Origin: Bacteroidota bacterium
Lineage (GTDB): Bacteria > Bacteroidota > Bacteroidia > Flavobacteriales_D > Sanyastnellaceae
DNA length: 64,000 nucleotides
Assembly (NCBI GenBank): GCA_027624855.1
Contig: JAQBTQ010000009.1
Coordinates: 1-64,000 of the forward strand
Reading direction: 5' to 3'
The notes beneath the pieces were generated by a model. That model saw only the letters and a program-made list of their open reading frames with translations, was not told where the DNA came from and ran no database searches. A program made the translations under genes and the position numbers. This document shows positions 1-44,355 of the stretch, in pieces. Each line of letters opens with the position of its first letter. The stretch's first letter is position 1.

Positions 1-345
1 ATCTGTTGCACTGCTGTTGTAGTTACAGGCCGTTGCATCTTGGCAACCCGCGATTTCGTCCGCGTCACACACGCCATCGTCATCCGAGTCGTTATCTACG
101 ATTATTCCGGTTCCATCGGTCTCTCCTGAACAAGTCTCACATCCTTGAGGATAAGTACAGGATCCTGCGTCTGTCGCAGCTGCATCGTAATTACACGCAG
201 TGTTGTCTTGGCATCCTACAACTTCGTCCGCATCGCAAACACCATCATCATCGGCATCGTTATCCACTACTGTACCGGAACCATCGGTTTCACCCGAACA
301 AGTTTCACAATCAACTGGCAATACGCATCCCCCATCATCTACAGT
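1..345 (-). repeat. Second tract of the ~168-bp Cys/Asp-rich coding repeat
   Basis: Two units of the same repeat as at 1180-1790 are visible (CETCSGETDG at about 125-145 and 293-315, minus strand). The tract continues past the window edge, so its copy number is unknown. Confidence 0.7.
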
Positions 346-2664
346 GGCCGAATCGTCATAATTACAAGCAGACGAATTCAAGCAGCCCAAAATCACTGGA
401 ATACAGCCACCATCATCGTAAAGCGCCTCATCATCATAATTCAATGCTTCCGTGTCGGTGCATCCACAATCTTGATAATTCGAAGCCATGGCACCATTCC
501 ACCCAGTAGCAGAGAACGTTCCCGGTCCATTGAATTCAAAGTGTTCGGTATGGAAAACACCGGCGCCATATTGTCCATTTTGCAATATTTGAACAGCCAA
601 TTCCCCTGATACCACTCCTTCAGAAGTCAACTGGGCAATCAACACTCGCCCATCCGTTCCACCAATGGCTGGATGATCCGGATCGCAGCTTCCCGCGTCT
701 GGACTTGGCGGAAGATCGCAATCGCGGGTATTGTACAATGTGAATCCTGAAGCATCATCTATGTATATATCCGAGCCCGCATTGAATGAGGACCAAAACG
801 TATTTGAGGCATCGATTGAACCGATGTTCAGATCCGCGTTCGCCGTATCCGACCCGAATGTCATCCAGCTATCGTATGCCAAATCAGGAAAGGCTTCCAC
901 CATCAAGGGCAGGATATCCGTACCCAAGTCAACGCTCAAAAGCGGATCATTGTACCAATTTGGAGTGGATGTTGAAGTCAAGGCAATGGGCGTATCCGTT
1001 CCCTCACCGTATATCGCACTCAAGAAATCGTTGGGATGCTCCATATTGACATACACACGATAGGTTGTGTGACCTGGGATACCATCTACCGCATGCTCTT
1101 CTACGGTGAGGCTGTAGGGTGACAACCCTGTCAATTGGCCGCAAGAACAGTATTCGCATGAGCCATCCTCATCCGTTGCGAGGGCATCAAAATTACATGC
1201 GGTAGCATCCTGGCAGCCGGCAACCTCATCGGCATCACAAATCCCATCGTCGTCGGCATCATTGTCAATGATAGTTCCTGTTCCGTCAGATTCTCCAGAA
1301 CATGATTCGCATCCAGTAGCATAAATACACGCTCCTGCATCCGTTGCACTACTCATGTAATTACAAGCCGTATTATCCTGGCAACCAACTACTTCGTCGG
1401 CATCGCACACCCCATCATCATCGGAATCATTATCAACTACGGTACCCGTACCGTCGGTTTCACCCGAACAACTTTCACAAATTCCATCGACAAAGATGCA
1501 AGCACCAGCGTCCGTGGCAGCGGCGTCGTAATTGCAAGCCGTTACATCCTGGCAACCAATCACCTCATCCGCATCACACACCCCGTCATCATCAGAGTCG
1601 TTGTCAACGATGGTTCCTGTACCATCTGTTGCTCCAGAGCATGTTTCACAACCCGTTGCGAAAGCACAAGAACCGTCATCATCCGTCGCAGCACTGTTGT
1701 AGTTGCAAGCTGAAGCATCTTGACAACCGGCAATTTCCAGCTCGTCACAAACGCCATCACTATCTACATCATTAACGCAATCGCCCGCACAATCATAGTA
1801 GAGCGGTGGATAATCACACGTTCCATTATCCGTCGTTGCCAGATCATAGTAGTTACAGGCATTGGGATCCGTGCATCCTTCAATGATGGGTGCACCCAAA
1901 GAAGTTCCATCGAATGATTGGGTCAAAATGACCTTATTGGTTGAATCTCCGTGAACCCAAATTTCTGCGTTCAATGTCCATGTGAATGTACCGTCAGTTG
2001 TGGCTTGAAGGACGATGAGTTGGTTGTCATCTCCTGCAAAACCGTTTGTAGCCTCCAAATCTTCTAGGCCCCATCCACCTTCACTATCCGGATCATTCAA
2101 TTGAATATCCAAGGCGCCATAATTTCCGCTGGACATGTAATCGAGGATAAAGTGGTCAGACCAAGTGTAAGTCAATGTTTGATCAATGACGACATCGGCC
2201 TCGTTATTCAGTCCAACTGGCCATTCGGTCAAACCAATTCCCACCCAAGAATCGTATTGGTGAACATTGTAGCCCGTGAATTGCCAGAAATCAGGTGGAG
2301 GAACACCTCCACTTGTTCCTCCCACGCAAACGTTGTTATTGTATACACCGGAAGGCGCCATGATTTCAAGCGGCAGATTCTCATCTCCGTATATTCTTCT
2401 AACAAAGTCGTCTGAATTCACCGTGTTCAAGTAAACCTTGTACATCGTATAGCCGTCAAAGTCGAAATTCTCATAGTCCCCGAGACTGAGGAGAAATGAA
2501 TTTGAAGTTTGAGTAAAGACATATTGACCCGGCAAGGTCTCTGCAGCAGAAATTTCATCTTCACAAAGAGCAGTGGTGGACAACATGGCTTGGGCGCAAC
2601 AAATGATGAGCAAGGTGCTCAACAGATGAAACCGCGCCGGCAGGGTATTGGCAGTTTGGCGCAT
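1..2664 (-). CDS. Giant Cys-rich exported repeat protein, C-terminus beyond the window
   Basis: Reading leftward from ATG 2662-2664 the frame stays open to base 1, giving 888 codons without a stop, so the C-terminus lies outside. Residues 1-35 look like a signal peptide. Two copies of an unassigned module (hallmarks YKVYLN or TYRVYVN, then YDSW, then LIAQLTS) lie at about 1900-2592 and 540-1135. Between and after them are Cys-rich units with GCTDPNACNY-type motifs alternating with thrombospondin-type-3-like Asp-rich stretches (DNDSDDDGVCDADE), likely calcium-binding. The export route cannot be read because the sorting end is missing; T9SS is the likely guess. A surface or adhesive role is inference. 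The gene is monocistronic as far as can be seen; no TAnnTTTG box was found close to the start. Confidence 0.88.
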   Translation of the reverse strand, partial: MRQTANTLPARFHLLSTLLIICCAQAMLSTTALCEDEISAAETLPGQYVFTQTSNSFLLSLGDYENFDFDGYTMYKVYLNTVNSDDFVRRIYGDENLPLEIMAPSGVYNNNVCVGGTSGGVPPPDFWQFTGYNVHQYDSWVGIGLTEWPVGLNNEADVVIDQTLTYTWSDHFILDYMSSGNYGALDIQLNDPDSEGGWGLEDLEATNGFAGDDNQLIVLQATTDGTFTWTLNAEIWVHGDSTNKVILTQSFDGTSLGAPIIEGCTDPNACNYYDLATTDNGTCDYPPLYYDCAGDCVNDVDSDGVCDELEIAGCQDASACNYNSAATDDDGSCAFATGCETCSGATDGTGTIVDNDSDDDGVCDADEVIGCQDVTACNYDAAATDAGACIFVDGICESCSGETDGTGTVVDNDSDDDGVCDADEVVGCQDNTACNYMSSATDAGACIYATGCESCSGESDGTGTIIDNDADDDGICDADEVAGCQDATACNFDALATDEDGSCEYCSCGQLTGLSPYSLTVEEHAVDGIPGHTTYRVYVNMEHPNDFLSAIYGEGTDTPIALTSTSTPNWYNDPLLSVDLGTDILPLMVEAFPDLAYDSWMTFGSDTANADLNIGSIDASNTFWSSFNAGSDIYIDDASGFTLYNTRDCDLPPSPDAGSCDPDHPAIGGTDGRVLIAQLTSEGVVSGELAVQILQNGQYGAGVFHTEHFEFNGPGTFSATGWNGAMASNYQDCGCTDTEALNYDDEALYDDGGCIPVILGCLNSSACNYDDSATVDDGGCVLPVDCETCSGETDGSGTVVDNDADDDGVCDADEVVGCQDNTACNYDAAATDAGSCTYPQGCETCSGETDGTGIIVDNDSDDDGVCDADEIAGCQDATACNYNSSATD
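1180..1790 (-). repeat. Tandem ~168-bp coding repeats (Cys/Asp-rich units)
   Basis: Successive units of roughly 168-171 bp encode the order CESCSGE, DGTGT, DNDSDDDGVCDADEV, GCQD, ACNY, ATD, GAC. About three and a half units lie here. A second tract of the same unit runs from about 345 to the left edge. Unit sequences are similar enough at DNA level to allow recombination between them. Confidence 0.75.
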
Positions 2665-19600: not shown

Positions 19601-19794
19601 TAGAGCGGATCGCCCATTGCATTGAAGGTGGTTGGCTCATAAAAAGCGGTATCTACTTCCCAACTGATGCCTGTCATCTGCGATTGCGAAACGAGATAGG
19701 AGCCCATAAAAACCAGCATCAACATTGAGCTTCGCATCATGGACGCCAAAGAATGAGCTGATAGGATTTGTTTGAAATTCACGCCGTATTTCAT
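16666..19794 (-). CDS. SprB-repeat surface adhesin with T9SS type B sorting domain
   Basis: About 1042 residues from ATG 19794 (19740 is an alternative nearer the hydrophobic core). The signal peptide ends near VSQSQ. About nine SprB-like repeats follow, recognisable by VTCNGEANGS, ISCTSYADG, VTCTGMNDGE and GGTG. The C-terminus is a type B sorting domain: AITPNGDGYNDEW, VRVFNRWGQQVF, ending GTVTLKY. It should be exported by T9SS and displayed on the surface, possibly in gliding or attachment. The operon continues with the PorP/SprF partner and the 207-residue module protein. Confidence 0.93.
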   Translation of the reverse strand: MKYGVNFKQILSAHSLASMMRSSMLMLVFMGSYLVSQSQMTGISWEVDTAFYEPTTFNAMGDPLYADLEGYVTYKLYAEFTNPGDELSAIYSDAAILGTAPFYINAECGCYNPPLGDVLLGGTQNEALFSFFPEVVYDTYWTLGFADGEQAALTNTSYNSLNMCQEQEDAGLIFTVTPEPAGDDLKIQFAQITTCGPFEFHACFQVFVNGNQSPFQEWCMDGDGDGPEVVQNPCEPYALNNAEIAVTNPIDCFGDLGAVDVNVNGASPILYELYDATDSTFITSQVDDNSFTNLEEGEYFVAIMDGNTCRDSSDVFVFVEPEELVASWTLLEDNVCPGDLSSVIQIDYSGGTGPFDIVAFSGANVGSGEYPDGNNQWVGLECVNGNGEWDFEIADANGCSVDTTIEIACIQDLVLEVTSEDITCFSYGDGIIEGFMAGGTGNLFLTGSPNLGSNISGEGTVNFTVNDLVAADYQLIVTDENGCTVEGAVTILEPDPVSIQLTISNLACAEACDGEVNIAAFGGSGVFDYEVADADGTVYDQDGLCVGDYFANAIDENGCVVQEPFAIAAPDSILFDVVVTDVTCNGEANGSICIENASGGSGMLSYQIDPPAGAFQFDPCFDVGSGTYVVTVQDESGCQVESSQLILDEPDAIQVILTPTEISCTSYADGTLAVDGIGGTGELTLVQPENGALPYVIENLDEGPIGVTVQDANGCILTVASEIVEPDSLVVEWLFLENVVCGGDCDGSVVLDYTGGTGSIELTLNGQADYNFSSLCAGDYTANVVDTNGCQDSTQFEITEPDPIEVLIDVTDVTCTGMNDGEVNIFPVGGTGDITWEVLEQGIDLLNLYEGLYNITAIDSTGCVEDTIFVVGAEEDTDMIINMLSSPVTCWNEQDGTATASVVGGHLPIEYLWSDPQAQTTATATGLYEDTYSVVVTDSLGCTLTRVVTVDPTIGCFFIAEAITPNGDGYNDEWIVGGLEYFPNSTVRVFNRWGQQVFSSTGYRERWDGRYNNVPLPMADYYYVIEFSGSEDPITGTVTLKY

Positions 19795-19918
19795 GAATGA
19801 GGTTTCAGTGTCTAAGGAAAACAAGCGTTTTGAAAGAAACGTTGCATTTTCAATTGAAAGCGCAAAATAGCGGAATTCCGCTACATGAGCATAAAGATTA
19901 GTGCAGAAGCCTTGAAAT

Positions 19919-20632
19919 TTAGGAGACACCCTTAAGACTCTGAACCTCGTCTTCAGTTAAATGGCGCCATTTCCCTAAAGGAACATCCAATTGCAAGTCC
20001 ATGATTCGAACGCGCTTCAATCGCACAACACGATGACCCAGTGCCTCGCACATCCGCCTGATTTGCCTGTTTAATCCTTGCACAAGTATGATTTTAAACA
20101 TCGTCGGCGACAATCGCTCCACTTCACAAGGTCGTGTCGTTGTGTCCAAAATGTGTACTCCACGTGACATCGTTTTCAAAAAGGCATCATCAAATGATCG
20201 GTTGACAGTCACAATGTATTCCTTTTCATGACCGTGCCGCTCACGCAGTATGTGATTCACAATCTCTCCATCATCCGTCAAAATGATCAATCCTTCGCTC
20301 ATTTTGTCCAATCGGCCAACTGGAAAAATGCGTGAGCTGTAATTCACAAAATCGACAATGTTGTCCTTTTCGCGGCGCTGATCGGTGGTACAAACGATGC
20401 CAACGGGCTTGTGCAACGCGATGTAGACGTGCTGGGATTTCTTCGAGGGTTCGATGATTTCTCCGTGTACGGTAACGACATCACCTGGCAAGACTTTGGT
20501 CCCTTTTTCCGGGACTTGGCCATTAATTCTAACGTGACCTGCATCGATGAGCTTGTCTGCCGCCCTTCTCGAGCAGTATCCTACCACGGTAAAGTACTTG
20601 TTGATTCGTATGCCGTCGGCCTCGTTTTCCAT
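19919..20632 (-). CDS. rluF: Pseudouridine synthase RluF-like
   Basis: A 237-residue protein from ATG 20632. An N-terminal S4 RNA-binding domain ([22 protein letters not shown]) is followed by the RsuA/RluB/E/F catalytic domain with [13 protein letters not shown], whose Asp is catalytic, and [17 protein letters not shown]. The latter sequence and the lack of a long C-terminal tail favour the RluF group, which modifies 23S rRNA; RsuA-type specificity cannot be excluded. A near-consensus box TATTTTCG lies exactly four bases before the ATG and supports this start. Confidence 0.88.
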
Positions 20633-26591: not shown

Positions 26592-29500
26592 TTAACGGAC
26601 CACGGTCACATATCCACTGTAGAATCGAGGTGACAATTCATGAACGGACTGGATCTCCAATCGGTACATGTATTGACCATCTGGGACAAAATGGTCCCCT
26701 CCTTGGTGTTCACCAATCCAAGGTTGGCTTGGATTGAATGATTCGAACACCTTTTCTCCCCACCGATTCATCACGAGCAAATGATATGAAGTTGCGCTAA
26801 ACGACTCACCCACCGGAAGAAAGGCGTCATTCAGTCCGTCATTGTTTGGACTAAATGCGCTCGGCACGTAAACCGCAAATTCAATCGGGACAAAATGAGC
26901 AATCAGCTCTTCCTCTTCTTGGTTAACCAGCGTTATGGCAGATGCATATGGATCTGGATTGGGCGCGGAGTTCGCGATTTCCCAATGATCAAAAACCCAA
27001 TTTTCAACGGCGGTCGCTTCCGCATTGAGCAGTCCCGTTACCTCGATCCCGCCTTCCCAATAATTGGTGACAATCAATTCCCCGCCTTCGATTCGAACCA
27101 TGCCTTTGTTCGCCGGTTCAACCCGGACCTTCAAATCCATGTGTTCAATGACTTCAAAATGCGCAGTGATTGTCGCTGCTTCTGTAACAGAAATGCTACC
27201 GGAACTTGCCGCCATGGAAGGAGAAACAAGGGGACCCGTTGAAGACCATCCAGTGAAAACGTGCCATTCATCCAAACCCACAGCTTGAATATCGTGGGCT
27301 CCGTAGTCTACCAACTCCATGGCAGGGTAGTTTTCCAACGCGGTTCCATCAAGGTAAATTTCTCCTGCACCAGGAGGGTCTACAATGAAGGTTAACTCCT
27401 GTGGGTCAGCATTGGAAGCAAAGTATGCGACCAAGGTGGCATTCCCGTTCAAGGTAAATCCTAGTTCTGGATTCGTTGCATCCACTAAATTGATATCGCC
27501 TTCGAGCACCTCCCAGAACAAGAATATCTCTCCATAGTTCTCAATTGCAGTTAACTCCATAGGAACACCAGCGAAATAAGTGGCATCCATGGGCACATCA
27601 AATGGGCCAATTTCAACAGAGTTGACTTGTACGTCGCCCATGCCATCGATAATCAATGTCAATGTGACCGATTCGACATCATAACAGTCCTCAATCCCTC
27701 CAATCAAGGTCTCTGCACATCGCTCTTCGATGAAATCGTGAATTTCCTGCACATTGGCCTCCCATTGCGGATAATTGCCGCCCCAGCGCTCGATGTGTCG
27801 ATCCATCTCAGGTTCGATTACAGTAATCATGCTGTCGAGTACGGCATGCATGTTGTCACAACTGAAGTGGGTGTTGCTCAAGTCAGCCCATCGATTGATG
27901 TATGTGGCCCAAAAATCTTCATTCTCGAGCAATGCATTGAAAATGGGAATGTGACCTTGACCGCCCGGATTGTTGAGCGACTCAGGATTACAGGGATCGG
28001 CGTCAGGGGACTGCGACGGGATGCCCGTGTAGTTCGCGCCATGACCAAAAGTGTTATCCATGTCCCATAATGCATAGCGCCATTTCTTTCCACTTCCATC
28101 AGGATGCCTTCCTCGCCACCATGCGGTGTTCCAATTGAGCCAGTCCGCACATACGGTGAATGAGTTGAGTAACACATAGTCAATCAAACTCATTGTGTTG
28201 AACACACTTTCGACGTATTCGTAATTATCCGGATCCGTCATGTCTTGCGTCGTAACAAAATTCACAAAGGGAGCCCAATCCGCATTGCTACCATACTCGA
28301 CCCAAGTTCCACCCCAGGTTTTGATGAAGTCGACAAAGTGTCGAGGTTGATCATAGTATTCGGTGGTAAAATCCAAGTCATCCACTTTTTCGCGGATTTC
28401 ATAAACCCCCCAGTATTCTCCATTCAAGTAAACTATGCAACTTTCATTCGTCCGTTCGTCGATTTTTAAATCAGCCAAATGACTGAGTGTTTGAACGTAC
28501 GCATCTCGGATGTGCCCTCCCCCAGAACTTGGGTAATTATCGTTGGCTGCTGCCTTGAAAATCAGTCGCTGATAAGCATCACGGTCTTTTACATGAAACA
28601 ACGGCTCTGTAAGGGCATAACTGTGCCCCATTTGATCCCGTGTGATGTAGTCAAAGCCTTTCTGTGGGTAGGCATTGGAATCATTGCCGTGTTCGTTCGA
28701 ATCGCCAGATGCTTCACACCAATAACTTCCGTCCGCATGGAAAAACTCAACATGACAGGGCTCGTCAGGCCCACCGCCCCATCCGCCGGGCCAATTGCCA
28801 TCTTCCTGGCCATTACCAGAAACCGAAACCACCATGATTGTATGGTTATCATCACCGGTGAAATAGGTGTTCGTATTGATGTGTGAATCCGCCAATGTGC
28901 CACTTGGATCGAAGCATCGGGCACGAACGACCGTGGTTTCATTGATGGTGATAGGACCAGCGTAAATGGGATCAGCTGCTGTCGGTGCATACCCATCCAA
29001 TGTGTAATGAATCTCAAATCCAGCAGGCGCCGAAATGACGACATTGGTACCCCCTGCATAATAACCTGATTCCTGCTCGAATTGTGGCGTTGGGGCATAG
29101 TCTTCAAACAAATCTCCTGCGACGCCAAATCCTGGGGTAGGATTCGTGCACAACTTCCATTGACCCATTACTCCATCCACATCGCGTGTCCAGCTATGAT
29201 CCGCTTGCGTGGGCGTCCAGTCTTCGTAAAAGGTGTAAGACTCAAGAATGTTGCCACTTGGGTCAGAAAAAACGACGCTCTCTCCCATCGTTTGGGTGAC
29301 CTTAAAATTCGTGTTCAAGTTCCCACCAACATACAAGTTCTCAGGCACTTCCCCTTCGTTGGAGCAAATGACCAACAAGTATCCACCAGCATTGATAGTC
29401 GTTCCAGCGGGAATTTCGAACATTTCGGGATTATCCAGATTATCGGAAAGAAAATAGCCTTCCAAATCAACTTGAGTAGGCCCTGCATTGTAAAATTCAA

Positions 29501-29645
29501 TGAAGTCCTCATTGTCTCCGTTGACACCCAAGGTGTAGTTGGATGCTGAGAATTCATTGATGATGACTTGAGCGGACCCCACCAACGAAATCGCACACCC
29601 AATCAACCCTATAAAAATGGATTTCATTTGTTTCACTTTCTTCAT
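26592..29645 (-). CDS. Secreted CotH-kinase protein with lamin-tail domain and T9SS type B domain
   Basis: About 1017 residues from ATG 29645 (29660 would overlap the previous stop). The signal peptide ends at VGSAQ. Domains in order: lamin-tail-like (VIINEFSASN to about 180), a chitobiase-type Ig domain (IHYTLDGYAPT), and CotH kinase (about 270-600) with YLNGEYWGVYEIREKVD and the metal-binding WRYALWDMDNTFG. These are followed by beta-rich repeats (DPPGAGEIYLDG) and a type B sorting domain with FSPNNDGLNDAF and VMNRWGEKVF. CotH kinases phosphorylate spore-coat proteins in Bacillus; substrates of secreted bacterial forms are unknown. It is the second gene of the lysyl oxidase operon. Confidence 0.92.
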   Translation of the reverse strand: MKKVKQMKSIFIGLIGCAISLVGSAQVIINEFSASNYTLGVNGDNEDFIEFYNAGPTQVDLEGYFLSDNLDNPEMFEIPAGTTINAGGYLLVICSNEGEVPENLYVGGNLNTNFKVTQTMGESVVFSDPSGNILESYTFYEDWTPTQADHSWTRDVDGVMGQWKLCTNPTPGFGVAGDLFEDYAPTPQFEQESGYYAGGTNVVISAPAGFEIHYTLDGYAPTAADPIYAGPITINETTVVRARCFDPSGTLADSHINTNTYFTGDDNHTIMVVSVSGNGQEDGNWPGGWGGGPDEPCHVEFFHADGSYWCEASGDSNEHGNDSNAYPQKGFDYITRDQMGHSYALTEPLFHVKDRDAYQRLIFKAAANDNYPSSGGGHIRDAYVQTLSHLADLKIDERTNESCIVYLNGEYWGVYEIREKVDDLDFTTEYYDQPRHFVDFIKTWGGTWVEYGSNADWAPFVNFVTTQDMTDPDNYEYVESVFNTMSLIDYVLLNSFTVCADWLNWNTAWWRGRHPDGSGKKWRYALWDMDNTFGHGANYTGIPSQSPDADPCNPESLNNPGGQGHIPIFNALLENEDFWATYINRWADLSNTHFSCDNMHAVLDSMITVIEPEMDRHIERWGGNYPQWEANVQEIHDFIEERCAETLIGGIEDCYDVESVTLTLIIDGMGDVQVNSVEIGPFDVPMDATYFAGVPMELTAIENYGEIFLFWEVLEGDINLVDATNPELGFTLNGNATLVAYFASNADPQELTFIVDPPGAGEIYLDGTALENYPAMELVDYGAHDIQAVGLDEWHVFTGWSSTGPLVSPSMAASSGSISVTEAATITAHFEVIEHMDLKVRVEPANKGMVRIEGGELIVTNYWEGGIEVTGLLNAEATAVENWVFDHWEIANSAPNPDPYASAITLVNQEEEELIAHFVPIEFAVYVPSAFSPNNDGLNDAFLPVGESFSATSYHLLVMNRWGEKVFESFNPSQPWIGEHQGGDHFVPDGQYMYRLEIQSVHELSPRFYSGYVTVVR

Positions 29646-29649
29646 GAGA

Positions 29650-32577
29650 TTATTGGACATTTAATCTACCTGTAAAGGTTGGATTGGTTCCTCCACTCAA
29701 GGTGTAGACATAGGCACCGCGCTTTAAGGCACCGCGCTGAATGACATGGGATGTCCCGTTGGGTCGTGCTTCATAAACAATCCTTCCCGTCGCATCCGTA
29801 ATTTGGAGTAGCATCGGTTGTCGGGATGGATTCGCAAATCTCAATGTTGATTGTTCAATCATTGGATTGGGATACAACATGGGCGCCTCTGCATCCAACG
29901 CATCTGAGATTCCACTTGAAATCACGCAACCTTCTTCAATGACATTCAAGGTGTTGTGATAATCTTCATTGACTACGTCAGTAATGAAGTCAATGCAAAC
30001 CTCTTCCTCAATTTCCGTCCAATACAAGCGCACAAATGGTACGTATTCATAATGCTTTGGAAAGCTCATGTTCTCATAGGATAAACCAATGACTTCATTT
30101 CCACCCGGTGCAAACGATGGGGTAATCGGATATTCAATCGGGTCCGCAATACTTACTGCCGATGAAATTGAAATCCCGCTCATGGAGAATTGATAGCCGA
30201 CAATCCGATTGTTTGGATTGTGCACATAGACGTCCAAATATTGTTGCCCCCAATTCACTGCTCCAATGGTGAAATGCACCGTATCGAATGGGTTTACAAT
30301 GTGATTGACAGGGAAATTGCACTTGTCGTGATATCCCAAACTATCCGGGTGCTGATGCAACACATTGAAGTGTTGACACAGTGCCATGTACGCGGCATCA
30401 GAGACGGTGATTTCGTCATCTTGGTCGATGTCTGTGCAAGGAAGCGCCTCGATGTCGTCTCCTAAAATGTGCTCCACGTATGCAACGGCGTCAGCAAAAT
30501 CTTGTTCGCCATTGTTATCAAGGTCTCCCATCAATGCCGTTCCATTGCAATCACCGTTGCAATCGGTAACTGCTGTGCCAAAAGACACCCCCATGCAATC
30601 ATCAAATGGTTCACAACCTTCGACCGTTTCCACCACCAGTTCGCCAGACGAACGATCCAGGTTGATGCAAACCGCCGCGTGATTGTTTTCGTAAGATATT
30701 TCTGCTCGACCCAATGCATCCGGGATGAAATCATAATTCGCCCGAACGACCAAGTAATAGATGCCATCATTCACCTCCGTAACATCGATCCATTGACAGC
30801 TCAATCCTGAACCATAGATGTCTCCACAACCCGCAGAAATCCCCATGTTTCCGCAACCATATTGACCGGTCCCTCCCCCACTGCATTCTAAATCCATTAC
30901 GCAAAAGCCATTCTTAAATCCAATGGGAATCAACTGACCACCCAATGTAAATAAGTCGTATTTGGCATACCCTTGATGATGCCAGTGATTGTGGCAATCC
31001 CCCCATTCGAATTGATTGTTTCCCTCTTGGCTGGGCACTCCGATGTAATAATCGAGTTCACCAATGTTTTGAATGTGCGTCGTGAATCGAACCAATTCTC
31101 GATCACCATAACCGTTGAGACAACCTTCTTCAATGTAGCAATCGGTCTCACTCACTTGCATCACTTGAGCTGAGAGACTGTTGATGATTGCTTGCGCACT
31201 TACAATCAAATCTGGACCTGTGCATTCGGGATCACCTGGAAAAACACAATCCCCGCTATCGACCTCTGCAAGCGGATTGTAGTTGCATGCCTCCTCATCG
31301 GTACACCCCGTAGGAGGGCCCACAAAGTCAAATTCCCAATCGAACCCATTCGAACATGCGCCATTCGGATCTTCAAGCAATAGCGCAGCATCGAAACTGA
31401 TGTCCGAACTCGTTGCATTCGCCTGATGAATTTCAACTGCTAGAACGTTTTCTCCAGTTTGAAGGTTGAGGAGAATTGGGTATTCATTCACCATGGATTC
31501 ATTGTTGCCTTCAACGGTTGCCATAGCCATCGTTTCCGAATTAATCGGACCCGCAGGCATATTCGAGCGATACACCTCAACTCCATTGAGGTAAACCACC
31601 GCCCCATCATCCCGTCGCAATTGCAGCACACCGGGCATGCTCGAACCTGGATTTCCTGCATAGTCAAAAGAATGCCGGAAATAGGTAGTGATGTGTTTGT
31701 CAGAAGAGTTTTCTCCATACGAGACTACCGTGGCCTCATCTCCATCTCCATATCCCAATTCCGCATTGCCAACGGCCCAATCGGCATCATCAAAACCTGT
31801 TGCAGACCAAGCACTGCCCAAGTCTTCTCCTCCATCGTGATAGGCCCAAGCTGACTCCAAATCGACTAGCGTCATGTAATCTGGCGAACCCAATCCCATT
31901 CGCACCCAGTACGTAATTCCGCCTTCCAACAGCACCGTCAAGTTCGCTTGTTCACCACAACCACCCTCTTCATCATCGTAATAAATGGTTCCTTCGTTTG
32001 TGTTATCGAAGTTGCCCATGTTGCAGTAGTCATATATCCACAATCGGGTATCACACGTGGCACCGCAAGTTGAGAATGAATACATCCCATTCGATGGCGG
32101 CGTAAACGCATACCACATATTGCTCTGTTCTTGTGCAATCACTCCGTAATCCGTTTCGGTTAACTCCATGGCATCATTGCACGTGGCTCCCGGGGCACAA
32201 TCAAAATTCACCGTTTCACCATAATCATAGTCGTTCCCTGAGGCGATTTCAATGCCATCTTGATACAGCCAGTAACCTCCTGGGGCATAGATTCCATCAC
32301 CATATGAGTCATTGATGGAAAATTGCAAGCAGGGCTCCTCGATGCTTGAATCAAAGCAAATGATCGTGCCTTCTGCACCTCCAGAACCGAGGACATTGCC
32401 CTGATAGGTCAATTCCCACGAAATTTCATTTGGCCAGTTGTCCGGAACAATGACGATTTCTATTTCCGTCTCACCTGATTCACATTGACCTGCAGACGGG
32501 TTCGCACAAAACAGAGCTGCTGCAGACAAGAGCACCCCAATAAATTCCCGTGAGAATTTGGTTTTTAAAAAAGCCAT
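29650..32577 (-). CDS. T9SS-secreted multidomain protein with lysyl oxidase domain
   Basis: A 975-residue protein. In order: signal peptide (1-31); an SWEL...DSYGDG module (about 40-127); a beta-sandwich with WYAFTPP (130-235); a galactose-binding-like domain (240-405); a GCTDEEACNYN unit; a lysyl oxidase domain (about 455-640); a dockerin-like pair (DLDNNGEQDFADA, DIDQDDEITVSDAAY); and a type A sorting domain (LYPNPMIEQ to the end). The oxidase part keeps the copper ligands H529, H531 and H533 in DCHNHWH, and K555 (GFKNGFC) and Y588 (GDIYG), which align with the Lys and Tyr forming the LTQ cofactor, plus CQWIDVT. It should oxidise lysine side chains or amines outside the cell. It is first in an apparent four-gene operon. 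Confidence 0.93.
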   Translation of the reverse strand: MAFLKTKFSREFIGVLLSAAALFCANPSAGQCESGETEIEIVIVPDNWPNEISWELTYQGNVLGSGGAEGTIICFDSSIEEPCLQFSINDSYGDGIYAPGGYWLYQDGIEIASGNDYDYGETVNFDCAPGATCNDAMELTETDYGVIAQEQSNMWYAFTPPSNGMYSFSTCGATCDTRLWIYDYCNMGNFDNTNEGTIYYDDEEGGCGEQANLTVLLEGGITYWVRMGLGSPDYMTLVDLESAWAYHDGGEDLGSAWSATGFDDADWAVGNAELGYGDGDEATVVSYGENSSDKHITTYFRHSFDYAGNPGSSMPGVLQLRRDDGAVVYLNGVEVYRSNMPAGPINSETMAMATVEGNNESMVNEYPILLNLQTGENVLAVEIHQANATSSDISFDAALLLEDPNGACSNGFDWEFDFVGPPTGCTDEEACNYNPLAEVDSGDCVFPGDPECTGPDLIVSAQAIINSLSAQVMQVSETDCYIEEGCLNGYGDRELVRFTTHIQNIGELDYYIGVPSQEGNNQFEWGDCHNHWHHQGYAKYDLFTLGGQLIPIGFKNGFCVMDLECSGGGTGQYGCGNMGISAGCGDIYGSGLSCQWIDVTEVNDGIYYLVVRANYDFIPDALGRAEISYENNHAAVCINLDRSSGELVVETVEGCEPFDDCMGVSFGTAVTDCNGDCNGTALMGDLDNNGEQDFADAVAYVEHILGDDIEALPCTDIDQDDEITVSDAAYMALCQHFNVLHQHPDSLGYHDKCNFPVNHIVNPFDTVHFTIGAVNWGQQYLDVYVHNPNNRIVGYQFSMSGISISSAVSIADPIEYPITPSFAPGGNEVIGLSYENMSFPKHYEYVPFVRLYWTEIEEEVCIDFITDVVNEDYHNTLNVIEEGCVISSGISDALDAEAPMLYPNPMIEQSTLRFANPSRQPMLLQITDATGRIVYEARPNGTSHVIQRGALKRGAYVYTLSGGTNPTFTGRLNVQ

Positions 32578-32853: not shown

Positions 32854-34974
32854 TCAATCACGCACCACTTCCATTTCATCTACAAGGTGACCCGCACCTG
32901 CGTACACATCTGTAATCCACAGAACGTAACGAATATCGACCATGATGTTGCGGCACCTGGATCCATCGAACAGAATGTCGCTCATGGTGGATTCCCAAGA
33001 ACGATCGAAGTTGATTCCAACCAAGTGACCGTCGCCATCGATTGCCGGTGACCCGGAGTTTCCTCCTGTCGTGTGATTCGATCCTGTAAAGCAAACGGGC
33101 AACTCTCCCTTCTCATTGGCGTATTCGCCCCAATCAGCTTCGTTGAGCGCTTCAACCAAATCCTCTGGTAAATCAAAATCCGGATCTCCTGGAACGTACT
33201 TCTGGAGGATTCCTTGGGTAGTTGTAAATGGTCTATACTCCATGCCATCATAGGGTGACGACCCTTCAACTTTTCCGTAGGTCAAGCGCAATGTGCTATT
33301 GGCATCTGGGAAAAATGCGCGCTCCGGGAACAAAGCTCGCAGTGCGCGAGTGTATGCGCCCGTTAACGAATCCAACTCATCCTTCGTTGCACCATAACCT
33401 TGTGCAACCTTTGTGAAATAGGCCGAGCGCATCGACTTGATCAATGCAAAGGCAGGGTCTTTTGCCAGCTTGGTAAACGATTTTTGTTGGCCTTTTTCCA
33501 ATAAATTCAGCAGGGCAGTTTCATCTGAAAAAACAGATTTTTCGAAAAGGTTTTCTGACCAAACCTCCGGAGTTTTTTGAGCCACCAAAAGCTCCTCAGG
33601 GATAAATTCCGCGTCCATGTGCTTGATGTAAGGCTCCACCAATGCCGCCATGATGGCTGCATCCACTGTGGCATCATATTGGCGGAAATGATCCCGGGTG
33701 ATCGCCTCAAGTTTCATACGTTCGGCGTTAAGTTCTTCTTCGGATTCGAAGCCTTCCCATTTCTCTATCAACGAAGAAAAATTCCATGCGAAATTCAAAA
33801 TGTCAGGACCGTAGTACACCCATTCGATGAAGAGGCTTCTCGCCAGGTAATAGCGATTGTGATCAGCATTAACGGCCTGGATTTCGGCAATTAATTGCAT
33901 TTGATCAATGTCGCCTTGCTCCGAGGCACGCGACATGAATTCTGCCTCCAATGCCCTCTTTTTTTCCAGAGCCTCCAGTTCGATTAAACCGTTGTTTTGA
34001 CCAATCCATTTTTTCCATGCATTTGAAATGGAGCTTTGTTTGTCGGCATAGGCAATTTTCAAAGCTGGGCTGGATGCTCTAGCCGCATTGATCACCGCCA
34101 ATGAAGCATCGCGCATTTCAATTCGCGCCGGATTCAAAGTCTCAATGACAAATTCCACAGCATCACTGGTCAAATACTGCTCTGTTCGCCCAGGAAAGCC
34201 AAAGACCATGGTGAAATCGCCTTCTTTCACCCCACCGATATCTACTGGAAAATGATGACCAGGATGATAAGGGACGTTGTCTTCACTGTAATCTACGGGA
34301 TTGTTTCCAGCATCTGCATAAATCCGAAATATGCTAAAATCCCCTGTGTGCCGAGGCCACACCCAATTGTCTGTATCTCCTCCAAACTTCCCCACTGCGG
34401 ACGGTGGAGCTCCAACCAAGCGCACATCGCGGTACGTTTTTGTTGTGATCAGGAAAAAACTATTCCCGAAATCAAAAGCCACAACGCTTCCCTCCAATCC
34501 GGTTCCATCCGTTGCGGCCTCAATCAATGCTTCTTTGGATGCTTCAGGATCAGTAGAGGATGTTATTTCATTGGTCACATCGACGATTCCGTCGATAAAC
34601 GTTGCGACCAAATTTGGATTTGGAAGCTCTTCATCTCGGCTCATGGCCCAAAAACCATCGGTGAGGTAATCGTGTTCGACTGTGCTGTGATAAGCTATTT
34701 GACTGTACCCGCAATGATGATTGGTCAGTAGCAGGCCTTCCGATGAAACCATTTCTGCAGTGCACCCTCCATTGAAATGGACTATGGCGTCTTTCAAGCT
34801 TCCTTGGTTGATGCTGAAAATATCCTCCGCACTTAGATGAAGCCCCATGGATTGCATATCCCCTTCAACAGCCTGCAAAAGCGTTGGAATCCACATGCCC
34901 TCTTTTGCTGAAGACAAATTGACGTTCAAGAAAAAAACAAAGAGAAAAAGAAATGAGTGAGTGGTGATGCGCAT
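32854..34974 (-). CDS. S46 family dipeptidyl-peptidase, DPP11-like
   Basis: A 706-residue protein with signal peptide MRITTHSFLFLFVFFLNVNL ending near SSA. The S46 serine-peptidase triad is visible: His in TNHHCGY (86/87), Asp near DNWVWPRHTGDFS, and S640 in GGNSGSP. R658 in NFDRSWE lies 18 residues after the serine, the spacing of S655 and R673 in Porphyromonas gingivalis DPP11; this Arg marks preference for Asp/Glu at P1, where DPP7 has Gly. It removes dipeptides from peptide N-termini in the periplasm and feeds peptide use. No T9SS domain. Divergent from threonine aldolase. Confidence 0.93.
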   Translation of the reverse strand: MRITTHSFLFLFVFFLNVNLSSAKEGMWIPTLLQAVEGDMQSMGLHLSAEDIFSINQGSLKDAIVHFNGGCTAEMVSSEGLLLTNHHCGYSQIAYHSTVEHDYLTDGFWAMSRDEELPNPNLVATFIDGIVDVTNEITSSTDPEASKEALIEAATDGTGLEGSVVAFDFGNSFFLITTKTYRDVRLVGAPPSAVGKFGGDTDNWVWPRHTGDFSIFRIYADAGNNPVDYSEDNVPYHPGHHFPVDIGGVKEGDFTMVFGFPGRTEQYLTSDAVEFVIETLNPARIEMRDASLAVINAARASSPALKIAYADKQSSISNAWKKWIGQNNGLIELEALEKKRALEAEFMSRASEQGDIDQMQLIAEIQAVNADHNRYYLARSLFIEWVYYGPDILNFAWNFSSLIEKWEGFESEEELNAERMKLEAITRDHFRQYDATVDAAIMAALVEPYIKHMDAEFIPEELLVAQKTPEVWSENLFEKSVFSDETALLNLLEKGQQKSFTKLAKDPAFALIKSMRSAYFTKVAQGYGATKDELDSLTGAYTRALRALFPERAFFPDANSTLRLTYGKVEGSSPYDGMEYRPFTTTQGILQKYVPGDPDFDLPEDLVEALNEADWGEYANEKGELPVCFTGSNHTTGGNSGSPAIDGDGHLVGINFDRSWESTMSDILFDGSRCRNIMVDIRYVLWITDVYAGAGHLVDEMEVVRD

Positions 34975-35031: not shown

Positions 35032-36087
35032 ATGGAAATGCACGCCGATTACCGTTCTGACACCCTAACGCGACCAACACCTGGCATGCTAGATGCCATG
35101 CGAAATGCAGCAACAGGTGATGACGTTTTTGCAGAAGACCCTACAGCCAATGAGTTGGAGGAAAGGGTGGCAAATCTGTTTGGACATGAGGCGGCCCTTT
35201 TCTGCCCGTCCGGGACGATGACAAATCAAATCGCCATTAACGTGCATGTGCAACCAGGAGATGAGGTCATATGCGATCGCATGGCACACATCTACAACTA
35301 TGAAGGCGGCGGAATCGCTCGTAATTCAGGGGCTTCCGTGCGGCTACTTCATGGTGATCACGGACGATTTACTTGGAAAGATGTGCAAAGTGAAATCAAC
35401 CCCTCCGATAGCCATTATGCTCGGACTTCATTGGTCTGTATTGAAGACACTTGCAATCGAGGAGGCGGTGCTGTTTGGTCAATGGAATCCATCCAATCCA
35501 TTCAGCAAGGATGCAAGGAATCTAGATTGCCGTTGCATTTAGATGGTGCACGATGTTGGAATTCAATGATTTCGCGAGCCGGAAATACCATGCCTGCTGC
35601 GTCGGATTGGCAAGCTTATGGTCAGCATTTCGACTCGATCTCCGTCTGTTTCTCGAAAGGACTGGGTGCTCCCATCGGGTCTGTGCTTATCGGATCACGA
35701 GCCTTCATTGACGAAGCCCATCGTGTGCGAAAGGTACTGGGAGGTGGCATGAGACAAATCGGCGTTGTTACCGCAGCGTGCCTTCATGCACTGGACCATG
35801 AATTGCCCCGGTTGCACGAAGACCACAAACACGCGAAACAGATTGGAAGCGTTCTTTCGAGCTTATCCAGGGTGATCTCAGTTGACCCCGTTGAGACCAA
35901 TATCCTCATTTTCGAAATTGAACAAGGGCTATCAGCAGCAGAATTTGTTTCATGGGCTGAAAAACAACAGCTAAGGTGCTTTGCTTTTGGCCCGCAACGG
36001 GTACGCATGGTCGTCCATCGCGATCTTTCGCCAGATCAAATCAATTGGACTTGTGAGTTATTAGCGAACTCCATTTTGAATGATTAG
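35032..36087 (+). CDS. Low-specificity L-threonine aldolase
   Basis: A 351-residue protein (ATG 35038 is an alternative start). A fold-type I PLP enzyme: [13 protein letters not shown] at the N-terminus, [17 protein letters not shown], the cofactor-binding LHLDGAR, and the PLP lysine in [12 protein letters not shown]. It cleaves L-threonine or allo-threonine to glycine and acetaldehyde. The gene stands alone; its 3' end overlaps the convergent T9SS protein gene by 27 bp. Confidence 0.93.
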
Positions 36088-37974
36088 GGGCCAAGTCAAC
36101 ACCCGCTGATCATCCTGAAACTGCAAAATATAGTGCCCATCCGACCAGTTGGAAACGTCAAACACGGGTTCATTGACCCCATTCCAATTGCGACGCTCAA
36201 CAAGTTTTCCTGTGCGGTCAAATGCCTCTACCACCCATCCTTTTATTCCTGGGTTGACATCCAAGTAAACCAATCCGTTGGCCGGATTTGGGAACAACTT
36301 CGCTTCTCCTAATCCCATCTCCGTCGTACCGACACTGCAGTCGTGCACGGTCAAAATCAAGGCATCAGCAAAAGAACATCCGGTTTCTGTCGTTCCATTC
36401 AGGACAATGCTGTATGTACCAGGTTCAAAATCTCCCGGTGCAACGTAAAAAAATTGATTGTTTGAGCCGTCTTGCCATTCATAATCATATCCCAAAGGCC
36501 CGTAAATCAACAAAGGTTCATCTTCGCAAATAATCGTGTCGTTTCCGATATAAAAATCACTCGCCTCCACTTCCGGAACATATGCTGTCACAGGATAGGT
36601 GCATCCGTTGTTATCGGTAATGTTCAATAGGTAGGTTCCTGGAACCAACATGGAAATGTCTTCAGAGTCTGATGCGAATTCACCAGGACCTGTCCATGCA
36701 AATTCATAAGGTGAGGAAGCCCCTTGCACATCAACTTCAACGGAACCGTCAGCTGCCGTTTCACAACTGGCTTGAGTGATATCCGTGGTTACATCCCATG
36801 AAGCTGGTGCAGAAATCACTCGTTCAAGACTAAATGAAGTTCCGCAGGCCGTGGTAACCTCAGCGGTATAGGTTCCTGGGGACAAATCAAAAATCCAAGA
36901 TTCATTCGATTGAAAACCATTCGGACCTGTCCATGCACATTCAAAATCCGATCCTCCAGCGTTTACATAGGGTAAGATGAATCCATTCGGCACAACATCC
37001 TTATCCAGCGGACAAGTCACATTACGCACTTGGGCATCGACCGATGTCTCAAAAACTTCAGTTGTAAATACCGAAACATCCGCAATTCCCGTCTGTCCAG
37101 CCCATCCATCCACTTGAATCAGGTATTGCTCCCCAGCCTCCAAGCAGCTCGAGTACATCGTAGAACGATAACCGGCGCACCAGTCATCATTTGAGGCAAC
37201 CAACTCAAAGGTCGAAAAGTCGCTGCAATCGGTCACATGATAAAGCGCCAATTGGGTGTCAAATGTGGAACTGTCCGAGCAAGTGGTAATGGTTACTGGA
37301 TCGGTAGCCTCAGCAACAAATGAAAGCCAAACCGAACTGCTCACGTTGCCATCTGAACCACACCATGAACCCGAAAGGCTGCACGAACCGCTTGGAGCAG
37401 CCGGAGGACTGACTTCGCCTGATTGAATGCTCCCTCCGACGGAATTGACCATGACAGACGGGCCATTCACTTCAATAGGAGCAGCGGCGCAGGGAATGTC
37501 ATAATCAATGAAAAGGCTTTCACCAGCAGTAAAGGTCCACACATTACCATATCCCGTTCCATTGAAAATTCCCGACAACAAACCGTCCATGTATACATCA
37601 AATCGACTTCCGCCGTCCCCATAACTATCTACGTGAATCAAATCCAATCCTTGGCCTTCAGCAAGGCAAAAAGGCCCCTCCATATAAATGGCGTTGTTTC
37701 CGTATGTCGCACCCCCATTGCCTCCATTGCCAGCACCATCACATCCGACATTGGCTGAGTTTCCACCACTGGCAATAAAGTTCTCACCTCCGCAAGCTTC
37801 TCCAGTGGGTGTCAATTCCCAATACATCTCATAACCCCAAGCATCTGTGTCAATAACAAACTCAATGGCAACTTCTCCTGCATTACATTGAGCGGAAATT
37901 ATTGAATTCGTTAAAGCATACATCATCAGCGAACCAATGAAGAGGAATTTTGTAGGATTGAGCGAGGCATTCAT
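36061..37974 (-). CDS. Secreted multidomain protein with T9SS type A sorting domain
   Basis: A 637-residue protein with signal peptide ending near IISAQ. An SWEL/DSYGDG-type module comes first ([10 protein letters not shown] to [15 protein letters not shown]), similar to that at the start of the lysyl oxidase protein. It is followed by a beta-sandwich with WLSFVA and FDTQLALY (about 165-305), SprB-like repeats ([22 protein letters not shown]) and a type A sorting domain ([14 protein letters not shown] to the end). No catalytic motif; probably a surface or matrix protein. A TATCTTCG box lies at 38022-38029, 47 bases before the start. Confidence 0.9.
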
Positions 37975-41710: not shown

Positions 41711-44209
41711 TCATTCGCAAGTCGTTCCGAAGACCGACAAGAATGACAACAAGTCAGGAGTAGCGACGAGGCCATCTCCATCGAGGTCACCAGGACATGT
41801 GTTCAATTCAAACTCACATGAGCCGTCGTCATTGGTTGCATCAGCATTGTAGTTGGTAGCATCTTCATAAACACAACCGAATACAACAGGCGTCACACAT
41901 GAACCGTCGTCTTCTTCAGCATATAAATCAAATTCAGCAAAGAATGGATCTGTACATCCTGGCATCAAGCAAGTCGCAGCGCAACTTCCAGCGCAGTATT
42001 GAACCATTGCACCTTCAGTAGCTGTAGCGATGTAGTTTCCGCCTCCTGCACCAATTGGCAAACCAGGATTCGCTTCACATTCCGTTGGCGCGTTGAAGAT
42101 CGATCCCCATCCTGACCAACCGTCAGCTGGACCAGTTGCTGCAATCACGAATTCAAAGACAGAACCTTCTTCCAATGTCAGGGTTCCGGTGAATACTCCA
42201 TCCATGTCATCATCTGCGAGTGTAACACCCCAAGCAAGCCATCCGTTCCAGCTTCCATTGATTACAACGTTGTCATAATCAGCATTCGGGAAACCGGTGT
42301 AGTTCATATCGATGGCGAAGGCGACATCAACGAAAACAGGTCCTGAAACCTCATCGCATGTCAAGCAAGTGCCATATGCATCTGAAGTAGTTGTTCCTGA
42401 ATCGGCCAATCGGTTGGCATAGCTTCCGTAATCCGTAACAGGAGCACAAGTAGCACCATCTAGCATATCGTCAATCAAATCTTCTTGATGAGCCCAGTAA
42501 TCTACCATGTACTTGTATTCGATTGTTGGTCCAGGAACATCCATCGTAATGGTGTAAGTTCCGTCCGCGTCATCATCAGACATCAAAATGTCAGCAGTCC
42601 ATCCCCATGTCGGACCCGTGATGTGTACTGTAGTAAAGTCCACACCAGCGCAAGTCATGTCAACATTGAATGTCGTGGTGAACAAGCATGAACCATCATC
42701 TACAGTGGCAGTTGGGTCGTAGTTTGTTGCCCCATCACTGGTGCATCCATAAACGTCTCCTTCGTTGATTTCACAAGCATCGCACGACTCCCAACATACT
42801 GCGTCCAAGACCATATCAACTCCACCTTCAACGTAGACGATACGATTGGTGAAATCACCTGTTGTTAAGGTACAAGCGGCGTCTAAAGAGTCCAATGCTT
42901 CATCAGAACCACTGTTTACGAATTTATATTCGTGGCCTCCAGCAGGAAGAGTAGCTGTGTATTCATAAATGCCGTCACCGTCATCATCGCTCATGACCTC
43001 ACCTGGGAATCCCCAACCGTTCAATGTTCCACCAAAGATGGTAACATCGCCAGCAACAGAAACTGTGTTCATGTCTACACGGAAGGTAACTGAAGCTTCA
43101 GAAACCGATTCACACGTTCCATCTGTGCTGCATTGTCCGAAACAAGTGCTGATAGAAGTTGGTCCGGTAACAGCAGGCAAGAATCGATCGTTGTAGTTCG
43201 CAGGATCTCCACAAGGCAATCCAGCGAGATTCTCCTTACAAGACCAGTCACCACAAGCACCATTTGTGAAGGTGTAGTAGCTTGAGAAACCTTCATCCAG
43301 CATCAAGGTGATGCTGTAGATTCCGTCTCCGTCAGGGTCGGTCATCTCATTATCTCCAGGGTTTCCAAAATTACCGCCTCCAGCAAGGTATACACCAGTC
43401 TCAGCTACAGTTTCATTGGCCATATTCACATTGAACGTGACTTCATGTTCTGGAATCTCAACATCACATGAGACGCATTCACCATAACAAACCAAATCGG
43501 TTGTAGCATCAGATGCTTCCAATTGGAAAAAACGGTTCCCGTATTCGGGAGTTGCACATGCACCAGGAACTGTTTCTTCATAGCCCCAGCCTGGTCCATT
43601 CATGTATTTCCACTGAATCAATGAACCCGCAACAATACCCTCTGCTGTGTAGGTGTAAATCCCATCACCATCAGGATCTGACATCGCATCAAAACCCCAG
43701 CCAATGAAATCACCAGCGATGTAAACGCCTGCTGGATTTGCTCCAACAGTGTTCATATCAACTTGGAAAGTCAGGGAAACAGGTTCTCCAGGATCTGAGC
43801 ATGTCTCAGTGCATCCTAGAGGACACATGTTGATTGTCATATCGTCTGCTCCAACTGTGAAGTGCCAGTTATTTGTGCCTGGTAACGCGCATTCCAAACC
43901 AGCTGCATTCCAAACCGAACCCCAACCGCCGTATCCGTCAGCGGCACCTGTGCCAGCAACAACGTATTCAATTACGGCTCCTTCGTTCAATTCAATTGAA
44001 CCAGTCCAGATGTTGTCACCATCTAAGTCTTCCAAAGGAACACCCCAAGCACCCCAGCCATTCCAGTTACCATTTACCGTTGCTGCGTCATAATCAGCAT
44101 TGGGGAAGCCAGTGTAATTGAAGTCAACATTAAAAGTGACTACTGAGGTTTGTGCATTTGACACCAAAGCGACCATACACAAAGCGATAAAGCCAATAAA
44201 ATTTTTCAT
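41711..44209 (-). CDS. Exported protein with six glycan-binding-like modules and a dockerin-like tail
   Basis: An 832-residue protein with signal peptide MKNFIGFIALCMVALVSNAQ. Six related modules of about 110 residues start near 22, 143, 254, 371, 511 and 626; each has VTFNVDM or VSLTFQVDM, G..GWG, M.DDDGDGIYEYT and EYKY. They resemble CBM20/48-like Ig folds that bind starch or glycogen (fold-level inference). Cys pairs close each module. GCTSDGATNY-type units lie between and after modules. The C-terminus, from CPGDLDGDGLVATPDLLSFL, is a half-dockerin-like motif instead of a T9SS domain. It lies behind the sugar transporter gene, with its own promoter. Confidence 0.87.
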   Translation of the reverse strand: MKNFIGFIALCMVALVSNAQTSVVTFNVDFNYTGFPNADYDAATVNGNWNGWGAWGVPLEDLDGDNIWTGSIELNEGAVIEYVVAGTGAADGYGGWGSVWNAAGLECALPGTNNWHFTVGADDMTINMCPLGCTETCSDPGEPVSLTFQVDMNTVGANPAGVYIAGDFIGWGFDAMSDPDGDGIYTYTAEGIVAGSLIQWKYMNGPGWGYEETVPGACATPEYGNRFFQLEASDATTDLVCYGECVSCDVEIPEHEVTFNVNMANETVAETGVYLAGGGNFGNPGDNEMTDPDGDGIYSITLMLDEGFSSYYTFTNGACGDWSCKENLAGLPCGDPANYNDRFLPAVTGPTSISTCFGQCSTDGTCESVSEASVTFRVDMNTVSVAGDVTIFGGTLNGWGFPGEVMSDDDGDGIYEYTATLPAGGHEYKFVNSGSDEALDSLDAACTLTTGDFTNRIVYVEGGVDMVLDAVCWESCDACEINEGDVYGCTSDGATNYDPTATVDDGSCLFTTTFNVDMTCAGVDFTTVHITGPTWGWTADILMSDDDADGTYTITMDVPGPTIEYKYMVDYWAHQEDLIDDMLDGATCAPVTDYGSYANRLADSGTTTSDAYGTCLTCDEVSGPVFVDVAFAIDMNYTGFPNADYDNVVINGSWNGWLAWGVTLADDDMDGVFTGTLTLEEGSVFEFVIAATGPADGWSGWGSIFNAPTECEANPGLPIGAGGGNYIATATEGAMVQYCAGSCAATCLMPGCTDPFFAEFDLYAEEDDGSCVTPVVFGCVYEDATNYNADATNDDGSCEFELNTCPGDLDGDGLVATPDLLSFLSVFGTTCE

Positions 44210-44271
44210 TTGATTAAGAGATTTCTACGAATTGCCATATACTACCATTGAGATGACAATTTTAATCGTCG

Positions 44272-44302
44272 GAAAGATAACAAACAAATCGTGTAATTAC
44301 AA
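44272..44302 (-). promoter_or_regulatory. Promoter of the six-module gene, TTG-N20-TATCTTTC
   Basis: TATCTTTC (44272-44279, one mismatch) with TTG (44300-44302) 20 bases upstream; the leader would be about 60 bases. Confidence 0.45.
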
Positions 44303-44355
44303 CACATCGGTATGAAAAGTTTCTCCTATGTGCTTGAATGCCATGAAATCAGCAA

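Follow-up and report, generated by a model that had tools for sequence, protein, structure and literature searches.

A lysyl oxidase domain in a modular, predicted T9SS-exported protein of the Flavobacteriales

Introduction

Lysyl oxidase (LOX) cross-links collagen in animals. What might an enzyme of this family do in a bacterium? The question is raised by a gene at positions 29650..32577 (minus strand) of the window, meaning here the whole 64,000-nucleotide stretch of a Bacteroidota contig (JAQBTQ010000009.1) that was analyzed. The gene is an open reading frame for a protein of 975 amino acids, and it has homologs, with synteny, in many metagenome-assembled genomes (MAGs). A preliminary description, made from the letters of this DNA, placed a LOX domain within the protein, set among modules suggestive of carbohydrate binding and secretion, and proposed that it either cross-links a bacterial matrix or uses amines outside of the cell.

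Prokaryotic LOX are not, of course, new in themselves. As that description said, bacterial homologs are known from surveys, and Bacteroidetes LOX with conserved residues were reported in 2015 (PMC4448552). Thus, bacterial and archaeal LOX, their presence in Bacteroidetes and the conservation of their residues are already known, and in this respect the core of the finding is ordinary. As far as the open-access literature shows, what is new is the setting of the domain among T9SS, dockerin and cohesin parts, its lineage-wide conservation, its coupling to a CotH gene, and its closeness to the animal enzymes. A search of that literature found no earlier report of a LOX with T9SS or of a LOX in marine Flavobacteria, an absence that is no proof.

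Computation gives the LOX family, the fold, the key residues, the T9SS tail, the conserved modules and the gene order. The protein is quite probably a genuine enzyme of the LOX family, exported by T9SS and acting outside of the cell. Its role is a matter for more tentative argument.

Identity of the catalytic domain

The preliminary description proposed two checks, a search with the Pfam Lysyl_oxidase model and a superposition on human LOXL2. The first gave a significant match to PF01186 at residues 455-641 (30655..31215, minus strand), with 111.4 bits where the cut-off is 20.4 (E 5.9e-32), and covered profile positions 1-195 of 204. The domain had been placed at 30658-31215, which is residues 455-640 of the same 975-residue frame. 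When the entire protein was compared with the PDB using phmmer, the sole sequence match was human LOXL2 (5ze3; E 7.6e-25). A profile built from 20 homologs again had LOXL2 at the top (E 1.9e-32), and beyond it found only filamin-C chains, at E ~0.05.

Structure prediction agrees. An AlphaFold2 model of residues 399-905 has a mean pLDDT of 74, with the LOX core mostly at 70-93. Superposed on 5ze3, the predicted LOX fold gives a VIA Z of 21.3 and an rmsd of 2.4 A over 191 residues. LOXL2 is also the top structural match found by Foldseek (E 3e-15).

Copper site, cofactor residues and cysteines

A family member need not be an enzyme, and the active-site residues must therefore be considered individually. 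The putative copper site, H529-N-H531-W-H533 (30979..30993, minus strand), has its three histidines aligned with LOXL2 H626, H628 and H630. The predicted lysine of the lysyl tyrosylquinone (LTQ) cofactor, K555 (30913..30915, minus strand), aligns with LOXL2 K653, and the predicted LTQ tyrosine, Y588 (30814..30816, minus strand), with Y689. All five lie intact exactly where the preliminary description put them. They are invariant in 20 homologs drawn from several families of the order, at 53-91% identity, and the same histidine triad, lysine and tyrosine are also kept in more divergent LOX, the short forms and those called "type B", at identities as low as ~20%.

Studies of LOXL2 give these positions meaning. 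Mutating any one of H626, H628 and H630 abolishes both cofactor and activity; H623 and H652 mutants retain part of the activity (PMC9694262). In the window protein, the H623 position holds glycine and the H652 position phenylalanine. Bacterial LOX that lack the first histidine of the animal motif have been noted before (PMC4448552).

The cysteines follow the same pattern. Here, C480, C486, C528, C559, C565, C575, C584 and C594 align with the core-disulfide cysteines of LOXL2, and they are invariant in LOX of the window's form, called type A. In LOXL2, these form the disulfides C573-C625, C579-C695, C657-C673 and C663-C685, four of the five in that protein (PMC9180022).

The preliminary description had also looked to a clustering of the histidines, lysine and tyrosine in the predicted fold. 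This does not discriminate, because in the LOXL2 precursor crystal (5ze3) K653 lies 16.6 A from Y689 (PMC9694262). The sequence and fold tests that were made all agree that the predicted domain is competent as an enzyme. One might still suppose that the LOX fold is kept here without catalysis, for binding or as a structural scaffold, as would suit a domain set among many binding-type modules. But the invariance of three histidines, a lysine and a tyrosine to ~20% identity would be unexpected without catalysis, and this supposition is very improbable.

If the domain is an active oxidase, copper would sit on H529, H531 and H533, and lysyl tyrosylquinone would form from K555 and Y588 after export. 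Extracellular primary amines would then be turned into aldehydes, giving ammonia and hydrogen peroxide.

The other modules of the protein

What surrounds the domain bears on where the enzyme would act. Residues 1-30 (32488..32577, minus strand) were recognized by eye as a probable Sec signal peptide, MAFLKTKFSREFIGVLLSAAALFCANPSAGQ, with a basic start followed by a hydrophobic stretch. At the other end, residues 901-972 (29662..29877, minus strand) match the T9SS type A sorting domain, both as PF18962 (Por_Secre_tail; E 3.7e-7, over the cut-off) and as TIGR04183 (E 6.8e-8). This is the sorting domain claimed in the preliminary description; export itself is predicted. SprA is encoded in the same genome (E 1.2e-162).

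Between the signal peptide and the LOX domain, two beta domains come first. One, at residues ~36-127 (32197..32472, minus strand; AlphaFold2 pLDDT 80-91), is kept in nearly all homologs. The second, at residues ~129-232 (31882..32193, minus strand), is conserved in homologs and may have the fold of a collagenase collagen-binding or PPC domain. That suggestion comes from a single structural match, to the ColG collagen-binding domain 5iku (VIA Z 10.8, with 99 residues superposed at an rmsd of 2.4 in the aligned range 129..415). The modeled likeness to ColG is a lead, and is no evidence for collagen binding.

Residues 233-404 (31366..31881, minus strand) are modeled as a jelly-roll that resembles the domains with which GH2 enzymes bind sugars (VIA Z ~11.5 to GH2 N-terminal domains). 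This is a lineage-specific insertion, found in the window protein and some near relatives and missing from most homologs. The "carbohydrate-type modules" of the preliminary description are supported to this extent, and for this one module only. A cysteine motif, GCTD...ACNYNP...DSGDC, follows at residues 424-444 (31246..31308, minus strand), where the homolog alignment has conserved columns.

Downstream of the LOX domain, residues ~684-738 (30364..30528, minus strand) hold a dockerin-like pair. In the window protein, the Dockerin_1 match lies below the cut-off (E 1.5-2.3), and the model has two helices at this place. Among the 20 homologs, 12 match Dockerin_1 at E values up to 1, the best being 7.5e-4. 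After this pair comes a domain that is absent from the preliminary description, a cohesin-like beta sandwich at residues ~761-892 (29902..30297, minus strand), modeled with pLDDT mostly 81-93. In structural searches it is most like cohesins (Foldseek E 2e-5 to 1e-3; VIA Z ~10-11); for 6kgf, the VIA Z is 10.9, with rmsd 3.0 over 124 residues. Neither the window protein nor the 20 homologs gave a Pfam match for this domain. The LOX-dockerin-cohesin block aligns across families of the order and is thus the conserved unit. The modular setting first described is therefore borne out, and is richer than it seemed.

A comparison with cellulosomal cohesins and dockerins is natural. What is shared is the predicted fold of residues 761-892 and the sub-threshold Dockerin_1 match. 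What differs is that identity is ~10%, that both modules lie within one protein, and that there is no known cellulase partner. The two modules would most likely tether the protein to itself, to partners or to a surface layer.

Conserved neighbors

The gene downstream of LOX (26592..29660, minus strand) overlaps it by 11 bp. Its Pfam matches are to LTD, CHB_HEX_C_1, a CotH kinase and a T9SS CHU_C tail. In Bacillus, CotH is a kinase that patterns the outer spore coat (PMC7821199), and cellulosomal proteins of Clostridium thermocellum contain CotH modules, LTD forms included (PMC6083626). Upstream lies a gene for an S46-family peptidase (32854..34974, minus strand; PF10459, E 1e-212), also a conserved neighbor.

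Among 79 retrieved loci, a CotH gene comes directly after LOX in 41, and in 39 of these the spacing is between -41 and +43 bp. The S46 peptidase gene is directly upstream of LOX in 50 of the 79, and both neighbors are present in 38. It would be tempting to take adjacency as proof that LOX and CotH function together. This was rejected. The LOX region as a whole is syntenic among relatives, so that adjacency is in part general synteny, and LOX loci from the order's other families have no CotH gene beside them. The more telling feature is the close spacing, because the region as a whole is syntenic; only the spacing is specific.

Distribution and divergent forms

The source genome has one LOX copy. 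LOX is carried by 4 of 395 genomes in a sample of the phylum, by 160 of 399 in the order, and by 100 of 114 in the family. GTDB contigs hold 449 relatives; the best 80 of the 449 are nearly all from MAGs of Flavobacteriales, and the titles of many point to marine surveys. Some genomes have two or three LOX genes, at separate loci. As to viral carriage, no LOX relative was found among IMG/VR contigs.

These data speak to a concern that any animal-like sequence within a draft genome must raise, that it is an assembly chimera or eukaryotic contamination. But the frame has no internal stop, the bacterial T9SS tail is in frame, core metabolic genes share the window, and the gene order is repeated in dozens of independent MAGs, quite apart from the 449 relatives. 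An artefact is vanishingly improbable, and independent assemblies already refute it.

Type B LOX of the Flavobacteriales (loci L062, L071, L061 and other loci of family f2) have the motif HPSHGHNH and only a partial Pfam match; their C-terminal end resembles a T9SS tail. They share with the window protein its phylum, HxHxH and the lysine and tyrosine. They differ in having ~30% identity to the window domain and LOX near the N-terminus, and in matching LOXL2 at 12-16 bits rather than 74-95.

Paralogous LOX genes of the same clade were also seen at other loci, one group with a different neighborhood that its members share and another, of ~38% identity, beside the gene for methylmalonyl-CoA mutase. 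The loci of paralogous LOX fall in two groups (L116, L124, L128, L132, L135, L138, L140; and L117, L118, L121, L127, L129, L130, L133). LOX loci of the Flavobacteriales type also occur on contigs labeled "Euryarchaeota archaeon SP189" (L104 and L116; PBNL01000055.1 and PBNL01000011.1). These contigs are probably from a mislabeled or mixed MAG, and give no basis for claims about archaeal LOX.

Relation to animal and other known lysyl oxidases

How close is type A to the animal enzymes? Scored against the LOXL2 catalytic fragment, type A sequences give 74-95 bits, those from Streptomyces and Gemmatirosa 29-32, and such short and type B forms of the Bacteroidota as matched 12-16. In a tree, the Streptomyces, Gemmatirosa and type B sequences fall outside of a group formed by LOXL2 and type A (UFBoot 89, SH-aLRT 81). 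Both the tree and the scores compare one animal sequence with few bacterial groups, with thin sampling outside of the Bacteroidota. Of the bacterial LOX groups in this small comparison, type A is, as judged from sequence, the nearest to LOXL2.

With animal LOX and LOXL1-4 (human LOXL2, 5ze3), the window protein shares the fold, HxHxH, the LTQ lysine and tyrosine, CQWxDxT and eight core cysteines. It differs in having no SRCR domains, no propeptide and no first histidine (LOXL2 H623), and in adding a T9SS tail and dockerin-like and cohesin-like modules. With the prokaryotic LOX of Grau-Bove et al. (2015) it shares a bacterial LOX domain and the conserved histidines, lysine and tyrosine. All but three of that set are LOX-only, whereas the window LOX is large and multi-domain, is kept across the order, and has the full animal-like cysteine set (PMC4448552).

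In the survey of 2015, some environmental sequences fell inside the LOX clade of the opisthokonts, and bacterial transfer was allowed as a source of opisthokont LOX (PMC4448552). Type A has a bearing on how animal LOX arose, a matter that the survey could not settle (PMC4448552), and points to a widespread and named group, the marine Flavobacteriales, with the full animal-like catalytic and cysteine set. A far-reaching reading would make this lineage the prokaryotic one nearest to opisthokont LOX, as possible source or sister, and would have it serve as it does in animals, a tethered, exported LOX cross-linking a protein layer outside of the bacterial cell together with the secreted CotH kinase of the overlapping gene. 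Taken whole, this is unlikely.

Candidate roles and the question of substrate

A LOX fixed in a bacterial lineage allows the function of LOX without collagen to be asked in bacteria, and may supply a new source of enzymes for lysine aldehyde chemistry. Matrix cross-linking and extracellular amine use, the two proposals first made, both fit the data; they are proposals. Tentatively favored here is the modification and cross-linking of proteins of the cell surface or matrix, perhaps together with the product of the overlapping CotH kinase gene.

A second reading starts from an archaeal enzyme. HTU-LOX, from Haloterrigena turkmenica, has amine oxidase activity that is sensitive to BAPN, and acts on a broad range of substrates (PMC6452851). 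It belongs to the same prokaryotic LOX family and has the same catalytic residues; it differs in having 308 amino acids, and no T9SS, dockerin or cohesin parts are described for it. It oxidizes amino acids as well as cadaverine, histamine and taurine, and the authors of that study propose that it helps to supply nitrogen (PMC6452851). The window protein might likewise be an extracellular scavenger, which would obtain nitrogen by releasing ammonia from polyamines, taurine, peptides or free lysine and would cross-link nothing. An S46-family peptidase gene upstream would suit such a life. But the tethering-type modules and the tightly coupled CotH kinase gene suggest a protein or a structure as the target, and neither an amine transporter nor an aldehyde dehydrogenase was identified among the scanned neighbors. 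Scavenging is a serious possibility, though somewhat short of an even one; cross-linking is slightly preferred.

Amine oxidation by LOX also yields hydrogen peroxide, on which the assay of the archaeal enzyme is based (PMC6452851), and the protein could be a generator of extracellular peroxide against competitors. This is improbable. Neither an immunity gene nor a catalase gene was seen among the scanned neighbors, and a gene that most of the family's genomes conserve looks like one for housekeeping.

Collagen-like proteins were considered as the substrate for cross-linking. The source genome encodes one such protein, of 652 amino acids (G000:C7 ~42752-44710; L039:4753-6711, minus strand). It has long GXY repeats (G-P-Q-G-E-Q-G-L-P), and it matches in part some models of Scl/Lcl collagen-like adhesins, always below their cut-offs. 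As a substrate this sole candidate was rejected, its GXY repeats having no lysine. Nor are LOX and collagen-like proteins associated within the family, where genes for the latter are present in 42 of the 100 genomes with LOX and in 9 of the 14 without it (Fisher p 0.15).

Lysine content was considered as a second line of support. In the window, T9SS-type proteins have 0.1-1.7% lysine, against mostly 4-7% in cytosolic ones. Such depletion might protect exported proteins from the cell's own LOX, an idea that was rejected: ten LOX-positive genomes (0.6-3.4%) and ten LOX-negative genomes (0.7-4.2%) overlap fully. Because they do, the lysine poverty of T9SS proteins is a general trait of the order. 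It means, in turn, that few sites for self cross-linking are available, since the exported proteins of the lineage are lysine-poor. Both attempts to support cross-linking, through collagen-like proteins and through lysine poverty, thus failed.

Other genes of the window

Several large exported-type proteins of the window are strikingly poor in both lysine and arginine (16666-19929, 36061-37974, 41711-44209 and 45834-51017), and one, of 1727 amino acids, has 0.1% lysine. At 58126-59085 lies a gene for a tyrosine recombinase (Phage_integrase, E 8e-46), beside an open reading frame for 403 amino acids (56927-58138) without a Pfam match. The window also has genes for an MFS transporter, PGI and an aldolase, and the 832-amino-acid protein encoded at 41711-44209 has glycogen-binding matches of the AMPK1_CBM/CBM48 type.
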